Assembly (NCBI RefSeq): GCF_019443985.1
Contig: NZ_CP049303.1
Coordinates: forward strand, 496,001 to 560,000
From: Liquorilactobacillus hordei DSM 19519
GTDB taxonomy: Bacteria; Bacillota; Bacilli; Lactobacillales; Lactobacillaceae
Direction: 5' to 3'
DNA: 64,000 bases
Positions 35,740 through 45,886 of this stretch are shown here, one piece after another; the stretch's first letter is position 1, and each line of letters starts with the position of its first letter. The translations under genes and the position numbers were made by a program. Under the pieces are notes generated by a model that saw nothing but the letters and a program-made list of their open reading frames with translations, was not told the DNA's origin and did not search any database.

Positions 35740-37293
35740 TTGACTAATGTTGACATGCAGGCTTTTGACAAGATTATTGTGCTTGACTTTGGGAGCCAGT
35801 ATAATCAATTGATTACCCGCCGAATTCGTGAGTTCGGTATCTATTCAGAATTGCTATCACATAATTTGACAGCTGCTGAGATTAAGAAAATGGCACCTAA
35901 GGGAATTATTTTCTCTGGTGGGCCTAATAGTGTTTATGATGAGAATGCTTTCCATGTGGATCCTGAGATTTTTGAACTCGGAATCCCTGTTTTAGGAATT
36001 TGTTATGGGATGCAGTTAATGGCAAATGAGCTTAATGGTAAGGTGGAAAGTGCTAATAACAAGGAATATGGCAAGGCTGATATTCATGTAGCATCCGCTG
36101 ACGAACCAATGTTCAAGGGATTACCAGCTACGCAGACGGTATGGATGAGTCATGGTGACCTAGTAACAAGTGTCCCTGAAGGATTCAGGATTGCTGCGAC
36201 AAGTGCTAATTGCCCAATCTCTGCAATGTCAAATGATGAGAAGAAGTTCTACGGTTTACAGTTCCATCCAGAAGTCCGTAACACAGAACACGGTAATGAT
36301 ATCTTGCGTCATTTTGCCTTTGATATCTGTAAGGCACGTGACAACTGGTCAATGGATGATTTCATTGATATGCAGATTGATAAAATTCGTGAAACTGTTG
36401 GTGATAAGAAGGTTCTGCTTGGTTTGTCAGGTGGTGTTGATTCATCAGTTGTGGGTGTCTTGTTGCATAAAGCAATTGGAACACAGCTGACAAGTATCTT
36501 CGTAGATCACGGACTGTTGCGTAAGGGTGAAGTTGAACAGGTTATGGCAAGCCTTGAAGGTAAATTCGGGCTGAACATTATTCAAGTAGATGCTAAAAAG
36601 CGCTTCATGGATAAGTTAGCTGGTGTTTCTGATCCTGAAAAGAAACGTAAGATCATTGGTAACGAATTTATTCGTGTCTTTGATGATGAAGCTGCTAAGT
36701 TAGATGGAATTGATTATTTAGCACAAGGAACACTTTATACCGATGTAATTGAATCGGGAACAGATACAGCACAAACAATCAAGTCACATCACAATGTTGG
36801 TGGCCTGCCAGAAGATGTTCAATTCCAGTTAATTGAACCCTTAAGGACATTATTCAAGGATGAAGTTCGTGAATTAGGTGAAAGACTTGGAATGTCGTCT
36901 GATCTTGTCTGGCGTCAACCATTCCCAGGACCTGGTCTTGGAATTCGCGTGATTGGTGAAATTACAGAAGAAAAACTTAAAATTGTTCGTGATAGTGACT
37001 TGATTCTACGTGAAGAAATCGCTAATCATGGTCTTGATAGAGAAATCTGGCAGTACTTCACGGTACTTCCTGGTATCCGCAGTGTTGGTGTCATGGGTGA
37101 TGGTCGGACTTACGATTATACGGTTGGAATTCGTGCAGTTACTTCGATTGATGGGATGACTGCTGATTTTGCTAAGATTCCATGGGATGTCTTACAAGCA
37201 ATCTCAGTTCGAATCGTTAACGAGGTCGATCACGTTAACCGCATAGTGTACGATATTACGTCGAAGCCACCGGCAACGATTGAGTGGGAATAG
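35740..37293 (+). CDS. guaA: GMP synthase (glutamine-hydrolysing)
   Basis: A 517-residue enzyme converting XMP to GMP with glutamine and ATP. The class I amidotransferase domain has the nucleophile Cys in GICYGMQLM near residue 88 and His in GLQFHPEV near 176; the ATP-pyrophosphatase P-loop is [10 protein letters not shown] near 229, and the C-terminal dimerisation domain ends TIEWE. The start is a TTG behind GAGGTGA. Its last 15 bases before the final stop base form the left attachment site of the mobile element, and the insertion leaves the protein intact. Confidence 0.95.
37278..37292 (+). other. left attachment site, attL
   Basis: GATTGAGTGGGAATA overlaps the guaA codons for Ile-Glu-Trp-Glu and the first bases of its stop. 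The identical 15 bases recur at 45770. Confidence 0.85.
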
Positions 37294-39130: not shown

Positions 39131-39337
39131 ATGCATACTTCAAATAAATTTAAGGAAAATATTCTACTGATAATAGGCTTGATTTTGTTTATTTTAGCTG
39201 GATTATTAAGAACTTATGAAATTGTCGCTTTATTTATAGCTCTTTTTGGACTGCTGGCGTTATTTATTAGCTCTTGGTACACGATAAAACGGAGGTTCTC
39301 AAATTTAATAGCCTATGTTAAGTCTTGGTTCAATTAG
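39131..39337 (+). CDS. small membrane protein of the mobile element
   Basis: A 68-residue protein with two hydrophobic helices (about residues 10-24 and 30-48) and a basic C-terminus. No family recognised. It ends 13 bases before the coupling ATPase start, so it may be a membrane partner of that protein, which is only inference from order and topology. Confidence 0.6.
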   Translation: MHTSNKFKENILLIIGLILFILAGLLRTYEIVALFIALFGLLALFISSWYTIKRRFSNLIAYVKSWFN

Positions 39338-39350
39338 AGGGGGGAAAATT

Positions 39351-40673
39351 ATGTGGCAACTTTTAAGAGAACGACGTGCTCGAGTACGTGGAGAACCTAT
39401 TGTAGTTTCTCCTTTACTACCTAACGCATTCGTTGATTATATAGATATCTTAAAATTTAATCAGCGTATTTTGAGCTTTTTTCTAACATTTTGGATAGCT
39501 GTTGGATTCATTTCAGGAAATTGGCTTGCGGAAATTGTTGTATCTGTAACAGGGATTCCTATTTTATTTAAACAGTATAAATATTTTAAAAATCTACGCC
39601 ATTTCTTCAGATATGAATATGAGACTGATTACAAACTTTTAAATTTTATTCAAGAAGCGGACTTAGATGAAAGCACTGTTGTTGTTTATGAAGAAAATTC
39701 TAGTGAGTTGCTAGTTAGGTTTTTGAAGAGTAATAACCCTACGTTAATCAATCAGTTAGAAAACTTAGAAAAATCTTTAGCAAGTTTATTTGGTATTTTG
39801 CCCGAAAAAAGAATTGATACACAAAGCGTTGATTATGTTTTTACTCTTGTCAAACCTGAAAGACTGGTTGTAACTGCTACGGAAGAACCTGAATTTACTG
39901 ATGATATGAACATTGATTTGGGTTATGGCGTTGTCTATAACCCTATCAAGACACCGCATGTATTAATAGGTGGTGGAACTGGTTCAGGTAAAACAATTTA
40001 TATAAGTTTCTTTCTGATTGAGCTCATGAGAAGGCATTCAATCATATATATTGCAGACCCCAAGAACTCGGACCTTGGTAATCTGTCACATTACCTTGAT
40101 GACCATGTGGCTGTAACACCAAATAATATTGCTAGAATTACTAGACTTGCGGTTGAAGAAATGGAAGAGAGGTATTCAATTATGAACGACCCTCTGAATT
40201 TTAAATATGGTTCAAATTTTGTTGACCATGGTTTTAACCCTTTATGGTTAATTTTTGATGAAATGGGAGCTTTCCAAGCTAGTGCTACAGACAAAGAGGG
40301 GAAAAAGATTGTAGATGAAGTTATGTCAAATATTAAACAGATTATTTTATTAGGACGACAAGCCGGGTGTTTCATTTTAGTTGCAGCTCAGCAAATGCGT
40401 GCGGAAACCTTGAATTCTGATTTGCGTGATAATCTCGGTTTGAGAATAGCACTTGGAAACAACAGTCCAGATGGATTAAGGATGATTTTTAATGCACACA
40501 TGCCAGCTTCGTTACCTGATGTAAGTGTAAAAGGTTCTGGTTTAATCTATGTTGAATCGACTGAAAAAAAGGGAGCAGAATATTGGGAAAGTCCTTTCGT
40601 TGATACCACAAAGTTTAACTTCATTGATGAGCTGTTAAAGTATAAAACAGCAGACAAATATTTTTCAGAATAA
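39351..40673 (+). CDS. FtsK/SpoIIIE-type coupling ATPase (TcpA-like)
   Basis: A 440-residue DNA-translocase-type ATPase with one or two membrane helices near residues 37-68, then a RecA-like motor domain: Walker A GGGTGSGKT near residue 205 and Walker B LWLIFDEMGAF near 295, followed by LLGRQAGCFILVAAQQ. Length and layout match TcpA-like coupling proteins (Tn916 Orf21 group) of Gram-positive ICEs and IMEs rather than the longer chromosomal FtsK. It would bring the nicked element DNA to a transfer channel. The ATG at 39351 follows GAGGGGGG; the frame is open 12 codons earlier. Confidence 0.85.
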   Translation: MWQLLRERRARVRGEPIVVSPLLPNAFVDYIDILKFNQRILSFFLTFWIAVGFISGNWLAEIVVSVTGIPILFKQYKYFKNLRHFFRYEYETDYKLLNFIQEADLDESTVVVYEENSSELLVRFLKSNNPTLINQLENLEKSLASLFGILPEKRIDTQSVDYVFTLVKPERLVVTATEEPEFTDDMNIDLGYGVVYNPIKTPHVLIGGGTGSGKTIYISFFLIELMRRHSIIYIADPKNSDLGNLSHYLDDHVAVTPNNIARITRLAVEEMEERYSIMNDPLNFKYGSNFVDHGFNPLWLIFDEMGAFQASATDKEGKKIVDEVMSNIKQIILLGRQAGCFILVAAQQMRAETLNSDLRDNLGLRIALGNNSPDGLRMIFNAHMPASLPDVSVKGSGLIYVESTEKKGAEYWESPFVDTTKFNFIDELLKYKTADKYFSE

Positions 40674-40785: not shown

Positions 40786-41100
40786 ATGAAAAAATTCGAA
40801 GTAGATAGTTTCTTAGAACCCAAATTATTGGGAGATGCATTCCTTGCCGTACAAGCAGAAGAAATTTTTGATTTTGAGGATAAAGAAAAAAAGGTTGGGT
40901 ATTCTTTCTTTATAAATATTCAAGACCCTAAGTCTGAATTCTATTATAGCTCTTTCGCAGTAAAGATTAAGACATTAACTCCGTCTTTGAAGATTGAAGA
41001 ATTGAGTAAAGGTCCTAAACCTGTAACTTTTAAAAATTTTTCAATGGGTCAATATAAAGGACGACTTTGGTTCTCGGCTGATGATATTATAGCCAAATAG
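40786..41100 (+). CDS. DUF961-like protein (YdcP/Tn916 Orf23 type)
   Basis: A 104-residue soluble protein resembling the small DUF961 proteins found next to the coupling ATPase and relaxase in Tn916-like elements. The telling part is the C-terminal stretch PVTFKNFSMGQYKGRLWFSA followed by DDI. The family's biochemical role is not well established; it is a marker for conjugative modules. GAAAGAGG precedes the ATG. It lies between two structured DNA regions that are candidates for transfer or replication origins. Confidence 0.65.
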   Translation: MKKFEVDSFLEPKLLGDAFLAVQAEEIFDFEDKEKKVGYSFFINIQDPKSEFYYSSFAVKIKTLTPSLKIEELSKGPKPVTFKNFSMGQYKGRLWFSADDIIAK

Positions 41101-41108
41101 ATTGATTC

Positions 41109-41206
41109 AAACTACTTAGCATGGAAAATTTTTGAAAGGGGTGCGCTGTCGGGACGACAAAGCGCAAGTGGAACGTCCCTAAAAAAATTTCCATGCTTTA
41201 GTAGTT
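41109..41206 (+). other. candidate replication/transfer origin (structured region)
   Basis: A long imperfect palindrome directly ahead of the HUH initiator gene. The outer arms AACTAC..GCATGGAAA (41110-41128) and TTTCCATGC..GTAGTT (41188-41206) pair. Inside, TGCGCT (41142-41147) pairs with AGCGCA (41161-41166), and the loop GGGACG (41151-41156) is complementary to CGTCCC (41174-41179), allowing a pseudoknot or alternative cruciform. Such structure next to a Rep/relaxase gene fits a double-strand origin or oriT. A structured RNA is the alternative. Confidence 0.6.
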
Positions 41207-41313
41207 AGAAGAAAAATTTATTTTTCTTCTATGTTTATTTATTATATAAACCAACTTAATGAGAAAAATCAAATTGCAAACATTAATTTTTAAATATATT
41301 GTGGGGTGATTCC

Positions 41314-42093
41314 TTGTATAACGAGAAGATAAAATTCTCGGATACCTTCACAGAGATTTGGACATATTCTAAGCCAATTGGTCAGGGACGAAAAGAGCAA
41401 GATAGAGATGATGTAAAGAAGCGTCGTTCTTTTGAAGAATTGTCTAAAGAAGAACAGAAAGAAAAATTAATTCGTTTGCAACGTCATAGGCAAGAATGTA
41501 AATGGGAATTGATGAGATTAATTGAAACAAATTGGGATTCAAGAACCTCATTTATAACGTTAACGACGAAAGAAAAATTTGAACGTGATAAATTTACCGA
41601 ACAATTTATGAAATTTATTAAGAGGCTTAATTATCAAGTGTTTGGGACTAAAAAGGCGACACTAAAGTATGTTGCTACTTTGGAAACTCAGAAAAGAGGG
41701 GCATACCATGCACACTGTTTATTTTTTTCAGTTCCCTTTATTGAGCATAAAAAACTTTTGAAGATTTGGGGTCTTGGGGGAGTGAGAATTAATAAATTGA
41801 ATAAGCTAGATGATGTAAGCAATTGTGGCCGATATTGCGTCAAGTACATGGAGAAGTCTCTCGGTCAGGAGCTATTATATTCTGTTGGTAAAAAAGCGTA
41901 TCTACGTTCAAGAAATTTAAAAATACCGGAAGAAGTAAAAATATTTTCTGTTAAACCACTTGAATTTGATAAAGAATTGATTGTTTATGAAAGTGATTAT
42001 TTTTCTAAAGTTTACGTTGAAGGAAAATTAGTAAATAACCCTGTTCATTATCGAAAAATACGAAATAAGGGGAAATGCAGTGATGATAACTAG
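41314..42093 (+). CDS. HUH-family rolling-circle initiator / relaxase
   Basis: A 259-residue HUH endonuclease of the rolling-circle Rep type. Motif 1 is SFITLTTKE near residue 86, the metal-binding HUH is GAYHAHCLFF near residue 130, and the tyrosine motif is GRYCVKYMEK near residue 172. In IMEs of Firmicutes, plasmid- or phage-type Rep proteins of this kind act as relaxases with a TcpA-like coupling protein, which is also present here. The TTG at 41314 follows GGGGTGAT; the frame is open five codons earlier. It overlaps the next gene by about 11 bases. Confidence 0.8.
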   Translation: MYNEKIKFSDTFTEIWTYSKPIGQGRKEQDRDDVKKRRSFEELSKEEQKEKLIRLQRHRQECKWELMRLIETNWDSRTSFITLTTKEKFERDKFTEQFMKFIKRLNYQVFGTKKATLKYVATLETQKRGAYHAHCLFFSVPFIEHKKLLKIWGLGGVRINKLNKLDDVSNCGRYCVKYMEKSLGQELLYSVGKKAYLRSRNLKIPEEVKIFSVKPLEFDKELIVYESDYFSKVYVEGKLVNNPVHYRKIRNKGKCSDDN

Positions 42094-42664
42094 GTCAAGA
42101 TTTAAACAGAACGAAAAAGTAGCTGTTATAAATGAATTTTCTGAATTGATAACAGGAATTATTAGGAATATTGATTCCTATGGTGGAAATACTTTTTATG
42201 ATGTTAAGCATAATGATGGTTATATAAAACATATTCCTGAAAGTTCAATTTATTCAATGCCAAAACAAAAAAGCTTATCTAGAAAAGCTATGGATTTTTC
42301 TATCGAATATCACGAAGATTCTATAAATGAACTGATTATTGTCGCAAATTATGTATCTTGTGTTTCAGAACTTGAAGAATTATCTGCTGTGGTATATCTA
42401 CAGGATATTTTAACAAAAGGTTGTTCCCTAGAAAAATTAGAAATTGAATTTTCAAAAGAAATTGTAGCAGCCGTCGTTGCTCTTACAAAAAAGAAAGAAG
42501 AAACGGATAGAGTTTATTTAAGAAGATTGAAGGTTAATGATTGGGCGCGAGTAATAAAAATTGGTGATTTTATTTATAAACAATCTTTGTTACAGATAAA
42601 TGATTCTGCTAAAGAGAAGTATTGGAAAGATGTTTACTTTTTAGAAAATAAGAAGGTGATTTAA
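42083..42664 (+). CDS. degenerate RelA/SpoT-HD-like protein with N-terminal module
   Basis: A 193-residue protein in two parts. Residues 1-60 (QNEKVAVINEFSELITGI to KHIPESSIYSM) form a beta-rich module also found in the protein encoded at 43129. Residues 65-185 follow the order of the RelA/SpoT/MESH1 HD domain: LSAVVYLQDILTKGCSLEKL corresponds to the LHDxxEDTxxT segment and ARVIKIGDFIY to the IKLADRLHN segment. The HD histidine is Gln and the ED pair is Thr-Lys, so metal binding should be lost, while the two Asp remain. ATG at 42083 follows AAGGGGAA and overlaps the initiator gene. Function unknown. Confidence 0.6.
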   Translation: MITRSRFKQNEKVAVINEFSELITGIIRNIDSYGGNTFYDVKHNDGYIKHIPESSIYSMPKQKSLSRKAMDFSIEYHEDSINELIIVANYVSCVSELEELSAVVYLQDILTKGCSLEKLEIEFSKEIVAAVVALTKKKEETDRVYLRRLKVNDWARVIKIGDFIYKQSLLQINDSAKEKYWKDVYFLENKKVI

Positions 42665-43093
42665 TTGAATAATGAAGAAAGTTTTTCAGAAAAAGCTTTG
42701 AGAGTTGCTAGTAAATATTATGAGGGGGAGATGTTTGTTGGAAAGCTCACATTTATTGAATATCTTAGTAATGTAGTTGAATTGGTAAAAGAAGATATTC
42801 ATTCAAACATTGATGAAGACAAACTAATTGCCGTAGCGTACTTGCATGGTGTTTTGGAAGATACAGATTGCACAAAGGAAGACTTGAAAAGTCTATTCCC
42901 AGAGGAAATTGTTGAGGGTGTTGTTAAGTCAACATACGGAGAATATCAGGCTGAATGTCGAAGTGAATGCCGAATTGAATCTGGCTTTGATGATTTTCTC
43001 GAATGGTTGAAAACAAATGAATTTGCAAGAATAGTTAAAATTGCAAGGCTAAAATTTATTTTTAAAGAAGAAATAAATATCTTAATGCTATAA
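42665..43093 (+). CDS. degenerate RelA/SpoT-HD-like protein
   Basis: A 142-residue protein that matches the RelA/SpoT-type HD domain better than its neighbour: AVAYLHGVLEDTDCTKEDLK and LFPEEIVEGVVKST follow the consensus AAxLHDVVEDTxxTxExLxxxFGxEVxxLVxGVT. The metal-binding Asp of the HD pair is Gly, and the later KLADRLHN segment is KIARLKFIF, without the Asp. The ED pair is kept. It begins directly after the previous stop, at a TTG behind AGAAGGTGAT. Loss of hydrolase activity is likely; a ligand-binding or partner role with the preceding protein is a guess. Confidence 0.6.
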   Translation: MNNEESFSEKALRVASKYYEGEMFVGKLTFIEYLSNVVELVKEDIHSNIDEDKLIAVAYLHGVLEDTDCTKEDLKSLFPEEIVEGVVKSTYGEYQAECRSECRIESGFDDFLEWLKTNEFARIVKIARLKFIFKEEINILML

Positions 43094-43128
43094 ATTTTTT
43101 ACAACAATAAAGGGGAATATAAAAAGTA

Positions 43129-43701
43129 ATGGAACTTGGTGCAAATTGTTATGTTGTTGGAGATGTTGTTGAATTTAAAACAAGTAATCAATTGTTGATA
43201 GGAACTATTGTTGTTAGTGATTATGGTGTACTAGGGTACTCTTCAAACAGATATGATATTTTTGCACAAAAAATGTTATATAAGCATGTTGAAGAAAAGT
43301 TCATTGTGAGAATGGTAGAAAAAACAGATAGACTTGTTTATTGGAAAAGACGTATTGAAACTTTTCTTGACGCATTGGGGGGGTTAGAAAAAGAGAGAAT
43401 TAAAAGAATAAAAAGAGGTCAAAACCTATTTGAATTGAACAAACAAATAAAATCAGGAAAGTATTTAGTAAGCACAGAGTCGGGAAGTAAATATTTAATT
43501 CAATTTGATAAAGAAGAAATTTTTATGATTAGAAAAAATGAGCAAAATAACTTACGTAAAGATTCTCAAAGTATAAGAGTGTTATTTTTGGACGTAAGAA
43601 TAGGATTGCCAGCATTTTTCATTTTAGAACCTTTAGGAAATAGTGATTTTACAATTCGTCAAACAACGAGAGTTACAGAAATAAAAGAATTTGATAGTTG
43701 A
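43129..43701 (+). CDS. hypothetical protein sharing the N-terminal module
   Basis: A 190-residue protein. Residues 5-62 (YVVGDVVEFKTSNQLLIGTI to the HVEEKFIVRMV segment) resemble the first 60 residues of the protein encoded at 42083 in spacing and pattern, suggesting a small beta-barrel module. The middle is helical and lysine-rich and the C-terminal half is strand-rich (KYLVSTESGSKYLIQFDKEE). I recognise no known domain. AAAGGGGA lies 11 bases ahead of the ATG. It is packed with the two HD-like genes and may work with them. Confidence 0.6.
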   Translation: MELGANCYVVGDVVEFKTSNQLLIGTIVVSDYGVLGYSSNRYDIFAQKMLYKHVEEKFIVRMVEKTDRLVYWKRRIETFLDALGGLEKERIKRIKRGQNLFELNKQIKSGKYLVSTESGSKYLIQFDKEEIFMIRKNEQNNLRKDSQSIRVLFLDVRIGLPAFFILEPLGNSDFTIRQTTRVTEIKEFDS

Positions 43702-43719
43702 AAGTGGGTGTAATAGTAG

Positions 43720-43938
43720 ATGTTGACACTAACAAAAAAAGAATTAATTGCTATTGGATTTGGACCAAGTCAATCAGCGGACATTATAAGGCGTTCTAAG
43801 CGATTAATGGTTTCTAAGGGCTTTGGATACTATACAAGTAAAAGGCTCGGTAGAGTTCCTGTTAAGGCTGTAGAAGAGGTATTAGGCATATGCATAGCAG
43901 ATGAAAAAGGAGAGTTAGTTGATGCCACGAGTAAGTAA
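43720..43938 (+). CDS. DUF3173 excisionase-like protein
   Basis: A 72-residue basic DNA-binding protein of the DUF3173 type, regularly encoded just ahead of tyrosine integrases in Firmicute elements. It shows the helix-turn-helix-like GFGPSQSADIIRRSKRLMVS followed by GYYTSKRLGRVPVKAVEEVL, ending in LG. It probably acts as a recombination directionality factor. The integrase start codon lies inside its last codons, so the two are translationally coupled. Ribosome site is weak (GTGGGTG). Confidence 0.85.
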   Translation: MLTLTKKELIAIGFGPSQSADIIRRSKRLMVSKGFGYYTSKRLGRVPVKAVEEVLGICIADEKGELVDATSK

Positions 43939-45109
43939 TGTTTATTTGAATAAGAAAACAGGAAAATTTTATTTTGTCGCGAACCTTGGTTTTGACGAAA
44001 ATGGAAAAAGAGTTCAACACTTTAAGCGAGGGTTTAGTACACAAAAAGAAGCAAAACAAGCCTATGATGAATTTATGAACAATCGTTCTGAAAGTGGAAT
44101 AAATAAAAATAGTTCAATGAGTTTTGAAGTATTTTATGAAGACTATTTTTTGTCTGATTATAAGCGTTCGGTTAGAAAAAGTACTTTTGATAATAGAAAA
44201 TTAATAATGGATAAACAGTTTAGATACTTTAACAATAGAAAATTAAAAGATATTTCTTTGGCTTATTTGAAAAAATGGCAGAATAATCTTTCAGAGCAAG
44301 GATTTAGCAATGGATATATAAGGTTGATTTTTGGTTTGTTAGAACAGGTTTTAGATTTGGCAAAAAAACTTGGTATGCTGCAAAAGAATCCAGCAAGGCA
44401 AGTAGGAAATGTGAAAAAGATAAAAAGGAAAGTAGATTTTTGGACTATTGAGGAATTTAGAAAGGTCTTTGCTACTTTTGACGATAATCAATATTATGAT
44501 TTTTTTTCAAAAGTATTGATAGATTTTCTCTATATGACTGGTTTAAGATTTGGAGAGGCTCAAGCTTTAACGTGGCAAGACATAGATATACAAAATTGTA
44601 TTGTTCACGTTAATAAGTCAATGTATTATAAAAATGCTGATGAATATTATATTGGAGAACCAAAAACAAGTGCAAGTATTCGTACAATAGCTATTGACCA
44701 TGATACTGCTAAAATGTTGGCAGATTGGAAAGTAGTTCAAGAAAAGAATATTGGTAGTACTGATTTTGTATTAAGCTATAATGGAAGTCCAACTAATCGG
44801 AGTACAGCAAGGCATATGATAGAACATCATGCCGAAATGGCTGGTGTACATCGAATTAAGGTTCATGCTTTGAGACATTCACACGCTTCAATGTTGATTG
44901 CTATGGGCGAAAATGCTTTGGTTGTTCAAAGTAGGCTCGGACATTCTGATATCAAGACCACTTTGGGGGTGTACAGTCACCTATATCCTAATGTAAATCG
45001 TGAAGTCGCTGATAGAATTGTTGGAATACTTGATGGTGTAAAGTTTAATAAGAATGCAAAAAGAAAAACATTTAACGGAAATGAATATCTAAAAGGAAGT
45101 GATTTGTGA
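43922..45109 (+). CDS. tyrosine site-specific integrase
   Basis: A 395-residue phage-type integrase. The N-terminal arm-binding domain (first 60 residues, with FDENGKRVQHFKRGFSTQKE) is followed by a core-binding SAM-like domain and the catalytic domain: Arg in TGLRFGEAQALTW near residue 200, HALRHSHASML near 320, and the LGHSDIKTTLGVYSHL end carrying the nucleophilic Tyr near 355. It should integrate the element at the guaA 3' end. The ATG at 43922 has AAAGGAG upstream and overlaps the DUF3173 gene. The last codons overlap the phosphoesterase start. Confidence 0.93.
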   Translation: MPRVSNVYLNKKTGKFYFVANLGFDENGKRVQHFKRGFSTQKEAKQAYDEFMNNRSESGINKNSSMSFEVFYEDYFLSDYKRSVRKSTFDNRKLIMDKQFRYFNNRKLKDISLAYLKKWQNNLSEQGFSNGYIRLIFGLLEQVLDLAKKLGMLQKNPARQVGNVKKIKRKVDFWTIEEFRKVFATFDDNQYYDFFSKVLIDFLYMTGLRFGEAQALTWQDIDIQNCIVHVNKSMYYKNADEYYIGEPKTSASIRTIAIDHDTAKMLADWKVVQEKNIGSTDFVLSYNGSPTNRSTARHMIEHHAEMAGVHRIKVHALRHSHASMLIAMGENALVVQSRLGHSDIKTTLGVYSHLYPNVNREVADRIVGILDGVKFNKNAKRKTFNGNEYLKGSDL

Positions 45110-45654
45110 TGAAATATTTTATTGCGGATATGCATTTTTGTCATGCGGATATCATTTCATTTAGTAATCGTCCATTTAAGAATGTTTTAGAAATGAATGA
45201 TGAGATGGTTAAACTTTGGAATGAACGGGTGCAATCTTCAGAAGATGAAGTCTATATATTGGGAGATTTTATGTATCGAGGTTCTGCAGAAAAAGCAAAT
45301 GAAATATTGAAAAAGTTAAGAGGAAAAAAATATTTAATTAAGGGAAATCATGAGCAATATTTAAATGATTCTGCATTTAATTTAAATAATTTTGAATGGA
45401 TTAAAGATTACTATAGCTTTTATTACAAAAGAAAGGAAATAGTGTTGTTTCATTATCCAATTCTTGAGTGGGCTCAATATTATAACAATTCTATTCTGCT
45501 TTATGGGCATGTTCATGATAAAAGAATAGAATACTTCGATAGTACTTTGGGGCCAAGGGCATTGAATGTTGGTGTAGATAGAATTGGATTTGCTCCTTTA
45601 AGTATTGATAAAGTATTGGAAAAAATTGAAGAACAGGAAATATTATTTTACTAA
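45109..45654 (+). CDS. calcineurin-like metallophosphoesterase
   Basis: A 181-residue metallophosphoesterase. The metal-binding signatures are in order: DMHFCH near residue 7, LGDFMYRG near 54, KGNHEQY near 78, LFHYPILEW near 109 and YGHVHDK near 126. Small stand-alone enzymes of this type are common in phages and mobile elements and hydrolyse phosphodiesters or cyclic nucleotides; the substrate here is unknown. AAAGGAAG precedes ATG 45109, whose A is the last base of the integrase stop, so it rides on the integrase message. It is the last gene before attR and is likely cargo. Confidence 0.85.
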   Translation: MKYFIADMHFCHADIISFSNRPFKNVLEMNDEMVKLWNERVQSSEDEVYILGDFMYRGSAEKANEILKKLRGKKYLIKGNHEQYLNDSAFNLNNFEWIKDYYSFYYKRKEIVLFHYPILEWAQYYNNSILLYGHVHDKRIEYFDSTLGPRALNVGVDRIGFAPLSIDKVLEKIEEQEILFY

Positions 45655-45659
45655 ATAGA

Positions 45660-45670
45660 AGAGCTAACAA
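45660..45670 (+). repeat. right arm-type site copy
   Basis: A third perfect AGAGCTAACAA, 100 bases inside attR. A related GCAAACAA follows four bases later. Confidence 0.6.
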
Positions 45671-45769
45671 TTTGCAAACAATCCTTATTAAACAAGATAT
45701 ATTTTAGTTTACTGTTAGGGACTAAAATGTTGTTATATCAGTATTTCAATTGTAATTAATTTCTTAAAT

Positions 45770-45784
45770 GATTGAGTGGGAATA
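45770..45784 (+). other. right attachment site, attR
   Basis: Identical to the 15 bases at 37278. The next base is A rather than G, so excision would give guaA a TAA stop in place of TAG with the same protein end. Confidence 0.85.
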
Positions 45785-45886
45785 AAACTAGTATAAATCA
45801 ACAAATTAAATAATTCTGAAAAGCGCTAAGTTGCTCTGAACAATCAAATACGAGTCTCACTTGTTCCGACTTAAATCGGGATTGTG

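Follow-up and report, generated by a model that had tools for sequence, protein, structure and literature searches.

A tandem pair of degenerate small alarmone hydrolase homologues on an integrative element

Bacterial small alarmone hydrolases (SAHs) are known as enzymes that confer immunity to toxic alarmone synthetases or act as their antitoxins; orphan SAHs are described as well (PMC9765508). A second paper describes a prophage gene order in which the toxin gene apk2 is followed by iapK and then by aph1, the product of which hydrolyses (p)ppApp (PMC12226406). A third source concerns the RelA protein of E. coli, in which an inactive HD domain has been retained and regulates the synthetase (PMC8012599). 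We recognised no stand-alone or degenerate pseudo-SAHs in the open-licence literature.

The 64-kb stretch of DNA analysed here (the window) contains two adjacent open reading frames, ORF1 and ORF2, that invite comparison with these systems. In profile and predicted fold they are like the SAHs, among them the prophage enzyme Aph1 (an adenosine 3'-pyrophosphohydrolase) and the (p)ppApp hydrolase of Bacteroides caccae (7smg), and like the SAHs they are short single-domain proteins found on a mobile element. Unlike them, however, ORF1 and ORF2 are without most of the active-site residues and form an adjacent pair; ORF1 bears an N-terminal extension, and no toxin neighbour was found. The immunity order of toxin, iapK and aph1 is absent: the neighbours of the pair are a replication initiator (rep) gene upstream and ORF3 downstream. 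In contrast to toxSAS systems, Pfam scans that covered 12 of the 14 ORFs of the element detected no domain of a toxic synthetase. The pseudo-hydrolase domain of gammaproteobacterial RelA is another point of reference: it belongs to the same HD superfamily and, having lost catalysis, has been retained in a regulatory role (PMC8012599). That domain sits in a long synthetase, whereas ORF1 and ORF2 stand alone, twice, and without a synthetase domain. An insertion of 11 residues in ORF2 may correspond in position to an enlarged loop of RelA homologues.

Family membership and active site

ORF1 (42080..42664, + strand, 194 aa) and ORF2 (42665..43093, + strand, 142 aa) lie where the original prediction had placed two genes; its start at 42083 is the ATG that follows the GTG at 42080. 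The genes run head to tail in one frame, the TAA stop of ORF1 (42664) being followed directly by the TTG start of ORF2 (42665), and the last 14 bases of the rep gene are shared with the start of ORF1. Judged by eye, Shine-Dalgarno-like stretches precede both starts. GC content by codon position (0.39/0.27/0.18 in ORF1, 0.47/0.26/0.24 in ORF2) resembles that of the other genes in the comparison. ORF1 comprises an N-terminal region of about 60 residues, in common with an SAH protein from another genome (L075, described below), followed by a degenerate SAH/HD domain. A degenerate SAH/HD domain is likewise found in ORF2. In a 10-row alignment, ORF1 has this additional region and is missing 8 residues across the DKAGxxY stretch, and ORF2 carries its 11-residue insertion and ends about 20 residues short at the C terminus.

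The original prediction had both proteins follow the HD-domain order of ppGpp hydrolases, and the profiles and predicted folds place them in the RelA/SpoT hydrolase fold family (HD_4, SAH-type). Our own SAH profile, made from 91 relatives with neither ORF included, was searched against the 192 stop-to-stop frames of the window. ORF2 (3.2e-20) and ORF1 (3.0e-15) were matched, and the next best frame had an E of 1.1. PHROG 990 also matched the two ORFs (9.5e-14 and 7.6e-10). The Pfam HD_4 profile, one of the means by which the original prediction was to be checked, gave less: the cut-off is 27.2 bits, ORF2 scored 18 bits, and ORF1 was unlisted at E values up to 1; thus, neither reaches the threshold. 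No Pfam match to a synthetase domain was found in either protein, and PADLOC matched neither.

Structure prediction on single chains returned an SAH-type HD fold for both proteins. The best match of each was 7smg, by Foldseek and by PDB sequence search alike. The ORF2 model has a mean confidence of 90.8; that of ORF1 is confident in its HD part (about 90 to 98) and low in its N-terminal part (43 to 60). Our impression is that this extension, in ORF1 and L075, is SH3/KOW-like.

The seven active-site columns read HHDEDDN in 87 of the 91 profile relatives, a set that leans to intact sites because many of its members were fetched by motif patterns (LHD or VKLADLxHN for most); the remaining four deviate within the last three sites, each at one or two of them. 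Of these relatives, 45 are viral, and some rows were left out for length or redundancy. A less biased set consists of 20 phage and plasmid relatives that we chose from the ORF1 and ORF2 match lists (15, 19, 39 and 28 records): 16 have an intact site, and four, from Rhizobium, have EK for ED. Against both sets, ORF1 and ORF2 are therefore outliers. At the seven positions ORF1 reads EQDTKDK and ORF2 YHGEDRI, such that two and three sites, respectively, are retained, and each protein has an incomplete set of metal-binding and catalytic residues (H, HD, ED, D, N). The substitutions first described, namely QD for HD and TK for ED in ORF1 with KIGD retained, and HG for HD and KIAR for KLAD in ORF2 with ED retained, are present in both the 10-row and a 93-row alignment. 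Two further losses are common to the ORFs: the first metal His is gone (replaced by E in ORF1 and by Y in ORF2), as is the Asn four residues past the last Asp. The observation thus stands, somewhat stronger than in its first form.

We take both His residues and two of the Asp residues to be metal ligands, an assignment carried over from MESH1/Rel. It bears on whether one or both ORFs could still be enzymes, with an altered site or another substrate. ORF2 does retain H-x-x-x-E-D, and in all four Rhizobium-plasmid SAH relatives inspected (L259-L262) EK replaces the catalytic ED, which means that this corner of the site varies in nature. However, the losses include the presumed ligands H, H and D, which all 91 profile relatives and all 20 of the phage and plasmid set have retained, and we consider continued catalysis quite improbable.

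The losses had also been called complementary, with a composite heterodimer, in which two chains complement into one working hydrolase, as one possible consequence. Descriptively this holds: no site is retained by both chains, and jointly they cover five of the seven. The pattern is not beyond chance, however; by hand calculation, two and three of seven sites retained at random would share none with a probability of 6/21 = 0.29. Moreover, even the two chains combined are without the first metal His and the Asn, and the HD active site of known SAH/Rel structures is formed within one chain. We therefore rejected the composite heterodimer, which is hardly credible. The other two proposals made with it, a non-catalytic alarmone sensor pair and an inhibitor of the host Rel, are candidate readings.

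The element and its relatives

The pair resides in an integrative element of about 8.5 kb at the 3' end of guaA. Identical 15-base repeats bound it: GATTGAGTGGGAATA at 37278..37292 (the 3' end of guaA and the left end of the element) and its copy at 45770..45784 (the right end). Two repeat copies with no more than one mismatch were reached in 0 of 100 shuffles, and the GC content of the element is 30.6%, vs. 35.0% for the window. These boundaries and the TAA/TTG junction bear out the earlier statement that the genes abut inside a mobile element. Upstream of the pair, also on the + strand, are genes for an FtsK/SpoIIIE- and TraB-like DNA translocase (39315..40673), a small protein without a Pfam match, of a type found beside ftsK and rep in related elements (40786..41100; presumably DUF961-like), and the replication initiator (rep, 41299..42093; PF23343, 1.8e-18). 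Downstream on that strand lie ORF3 (43129..43701, 190 aa), a DUF3173 protein that is probably an excisionase (43720..43938), a tyrosine integrase (43919..45109) and a calcineurin-like metallophosphoesterase (45106..45654; PF00149). ORF3 had no homologue among the loci compared; its N-terminal stretch bears a weak resemblance to the L075 one (blastp search of three sequences, E 0.001) and may carry the same module. The excisionase/integrase stretch (43730-45051) has a 64% DNA match in Enterococcus phage Efs 1-1-1, and a comparison of window DNA from 41100 to 45800 with plasmids and phages gave matches confined to the integrase/excisionase stretches. Of the 201 family genomes, 9 have a related replication initiator, the host's own counted. 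In three related loci inspected around rep, no SAH lies behind it; thus, the ORF1/ORF2 pair is cargo.

A genome from another family of the same order (G270) carries a related element, with homologues of the ftsK-like, small-protein and integrase genes and with the 207-aa SAH protein L075 (6629-7252). L075 matches residues 31-188 of ORF1 (E 3.4e-12) and has the same N-terminal extension and domain order. It differs from ORF1 in that all seven of its active-site residues are intact, it is a single copy and it is located beyond the integrase. A second G270 copy is closer to ORF1 (40% over residues 79-175) and joins it in the tree at 88/80. That copy is a decayed pseudogene with a broken front part and four in-frame stops in the alignment. 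The placement of ORF2 in the tree is insecure, and the branches of the two ORFs are very long (3.57 and 2.7, vs. a median of 0.56). Two viral SAHs (L218, 2887-3531; L215, 2878-3495) have N-terminal extensions of about 60 residues, reminiscent of those of ORF1 and L075. Other phage SAHs (L256, L257, L265, L266, L272 and L273) lie behind head/MuF genes, two of them annotated as MuF, which may be compared with the order apk2-iapK-aph1.

Among the 201 family genomes, ORF1 had a relative in its own genome only. Among 395 genomes of the order, 32 matched it at E up to 0.01, its own included, and the frames extracted from these matches that we inspected were single SAHs with active sites. ORF2 matched 39 places in 38 of the 201 family genomes; apart from its own locus and one frame of 205 aa, all are long Rel frames (740 to 770 aa). 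The host itself has a single long Rel, whose HD_4 domain is intact. Pattern scans confirmed no relatives of either ORF in viral contigs, nor of ORF1 or of an alignment (A2) in named genome contigs. A second genome with the pair was not found among the family and order genomes, viral contigs, plasmids and phages. A second SAH was nearby in 0 of 172 other SAH loci (a number that includes duplicates, with 117 different C-terminal stretches, and flanks of 0.7 to 6 kb); the tandem pair is therefore peculiar to this window.

Retention or decay

We favour, with confidence that is about even, the reading that ORF1 and ORF2 are two diverged SAH-family pseudoenzymes, cargo retained for binding. Judging from their residues, they would no longer hydrolyse (p)ppNpp, and a folded HD domain would still bind something and hence be kept. 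The ligand would most likely be a nucleotide (ppGpp, ppApp or NADP-like) or a protein, candidate partners being the other pseudo-SAH, the host Rel and an element protein; such pseudo-SAHs would regulate rather than cut. A more specific form, in which the stand-alone pair binds an alarmone or the host Rel without cutting and so couples the element's replication or transfer to the stress state of its host, seems unlikely to us. The alternative that the two are remnants, i.e., tandem element-borne SAHs under relaxed selection that are inactive, decaying and without present function, has a substantial probability, if one short of even.

Neutral decay was simulated from the L075 gene with 3000 runs for each ORF. 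A loss like that of ORF1 was accompanied by a mean of 11.2 stops, and one like that of ORF2 by 7.7; stop-free outcomes had frequencies of 0.0003 (five lost sites) and 0.007 (four), values that exclude strict neutrality since the loss but not weak selection or a late loss. Frames that remain open over 194 and 142 codons after five and four of seven sites have been lost are thus poorly explained by neutral decay, which favours pseudoenzymes over remnants, without certainty. The coding-like codon positions, the good start contexts and the compact HD domains predicted for both also argue against remnants.

The pattern of residue loss differs between the two proteins. ORF2 retains 5 of 22 polar vs. 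16 of 23 non-polar conserved columns (one-sided Fisher, 0.0019), or 5 of 16 vs. 16 of 22 without gap columns (0.013): its core has been kept, which speaks against remnants. In ORF1, polar (8 of 22) and non-polar (10 of 23) columns have been lost alike (Fisher, 0.43). This absence of sparing is the expectation under general decay and counts against the pseudoenzyme reading. The long branches of both ORFs, the truncation of ORF2 and the internal deletion in ORF1 likewise point to remnants. Because the sister copy in G270 has decayed, cargo of this type evidently does decay, and because the pair is known from a single genome, it lacks the conservation by which function is usually proved.

The pair could also consist of immunity or antitoxin-type proteins that descend from hydrolytic immunity ancestors (compare Aph1 for phage Apk2 toxins) and act by protein contact. 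Their closest phage relatives do lie behind head/MuF genes, an arrangement recalling the reported apk2-iapK-aph1 order (PMC12226406). However, the lack of a synthetase-like toxin domain in the scanned element ORFs and of a PADLOC match to either protein makes this reading very unlikely.

If functional, ORF1 and ORF2 would be free-standing, paired alarmone pseudo-hydrolases on a mobile element, and they would allow a test of whether binding alone lets mobile DNA read or blunt the stress signalling of its host. If they are remnants, the pair illustrates the decay of hydrolase cargo on such elements.

Phosphoesterase genes beside SAHs

In G270 and in two Pseudomonas phages, phiK7A1 and XD2, homologues of the element's phosphoesterase gene immediately follow intact SAH genes, which they overlap at ATGA or TAATG. 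This recurrent two-gene unit is represented by L076 (5315-5659 and 5656-6078), L269 (1120-1644) and L254 (from 1090). Of 29 phosphoesterase loci in the order (the window's own excluded), 1 has an SAH within 1.5 kb, and of 110 SAH loci from viruses and plasmids, 2 have the phosphoesterase. A general link between the two genes was thus rejected; the association is recurrent, not the rule. No paper that combines the terms "small alarmone hydrolase" and "metallophosphoesterase" was found in the open-licence literature. At a further locus (L228, 646-1479 and 1501-2031), the phosphoesterase homologue adjoins another protein, which we take to resemble the microbial PARG/ADP-ribose family.
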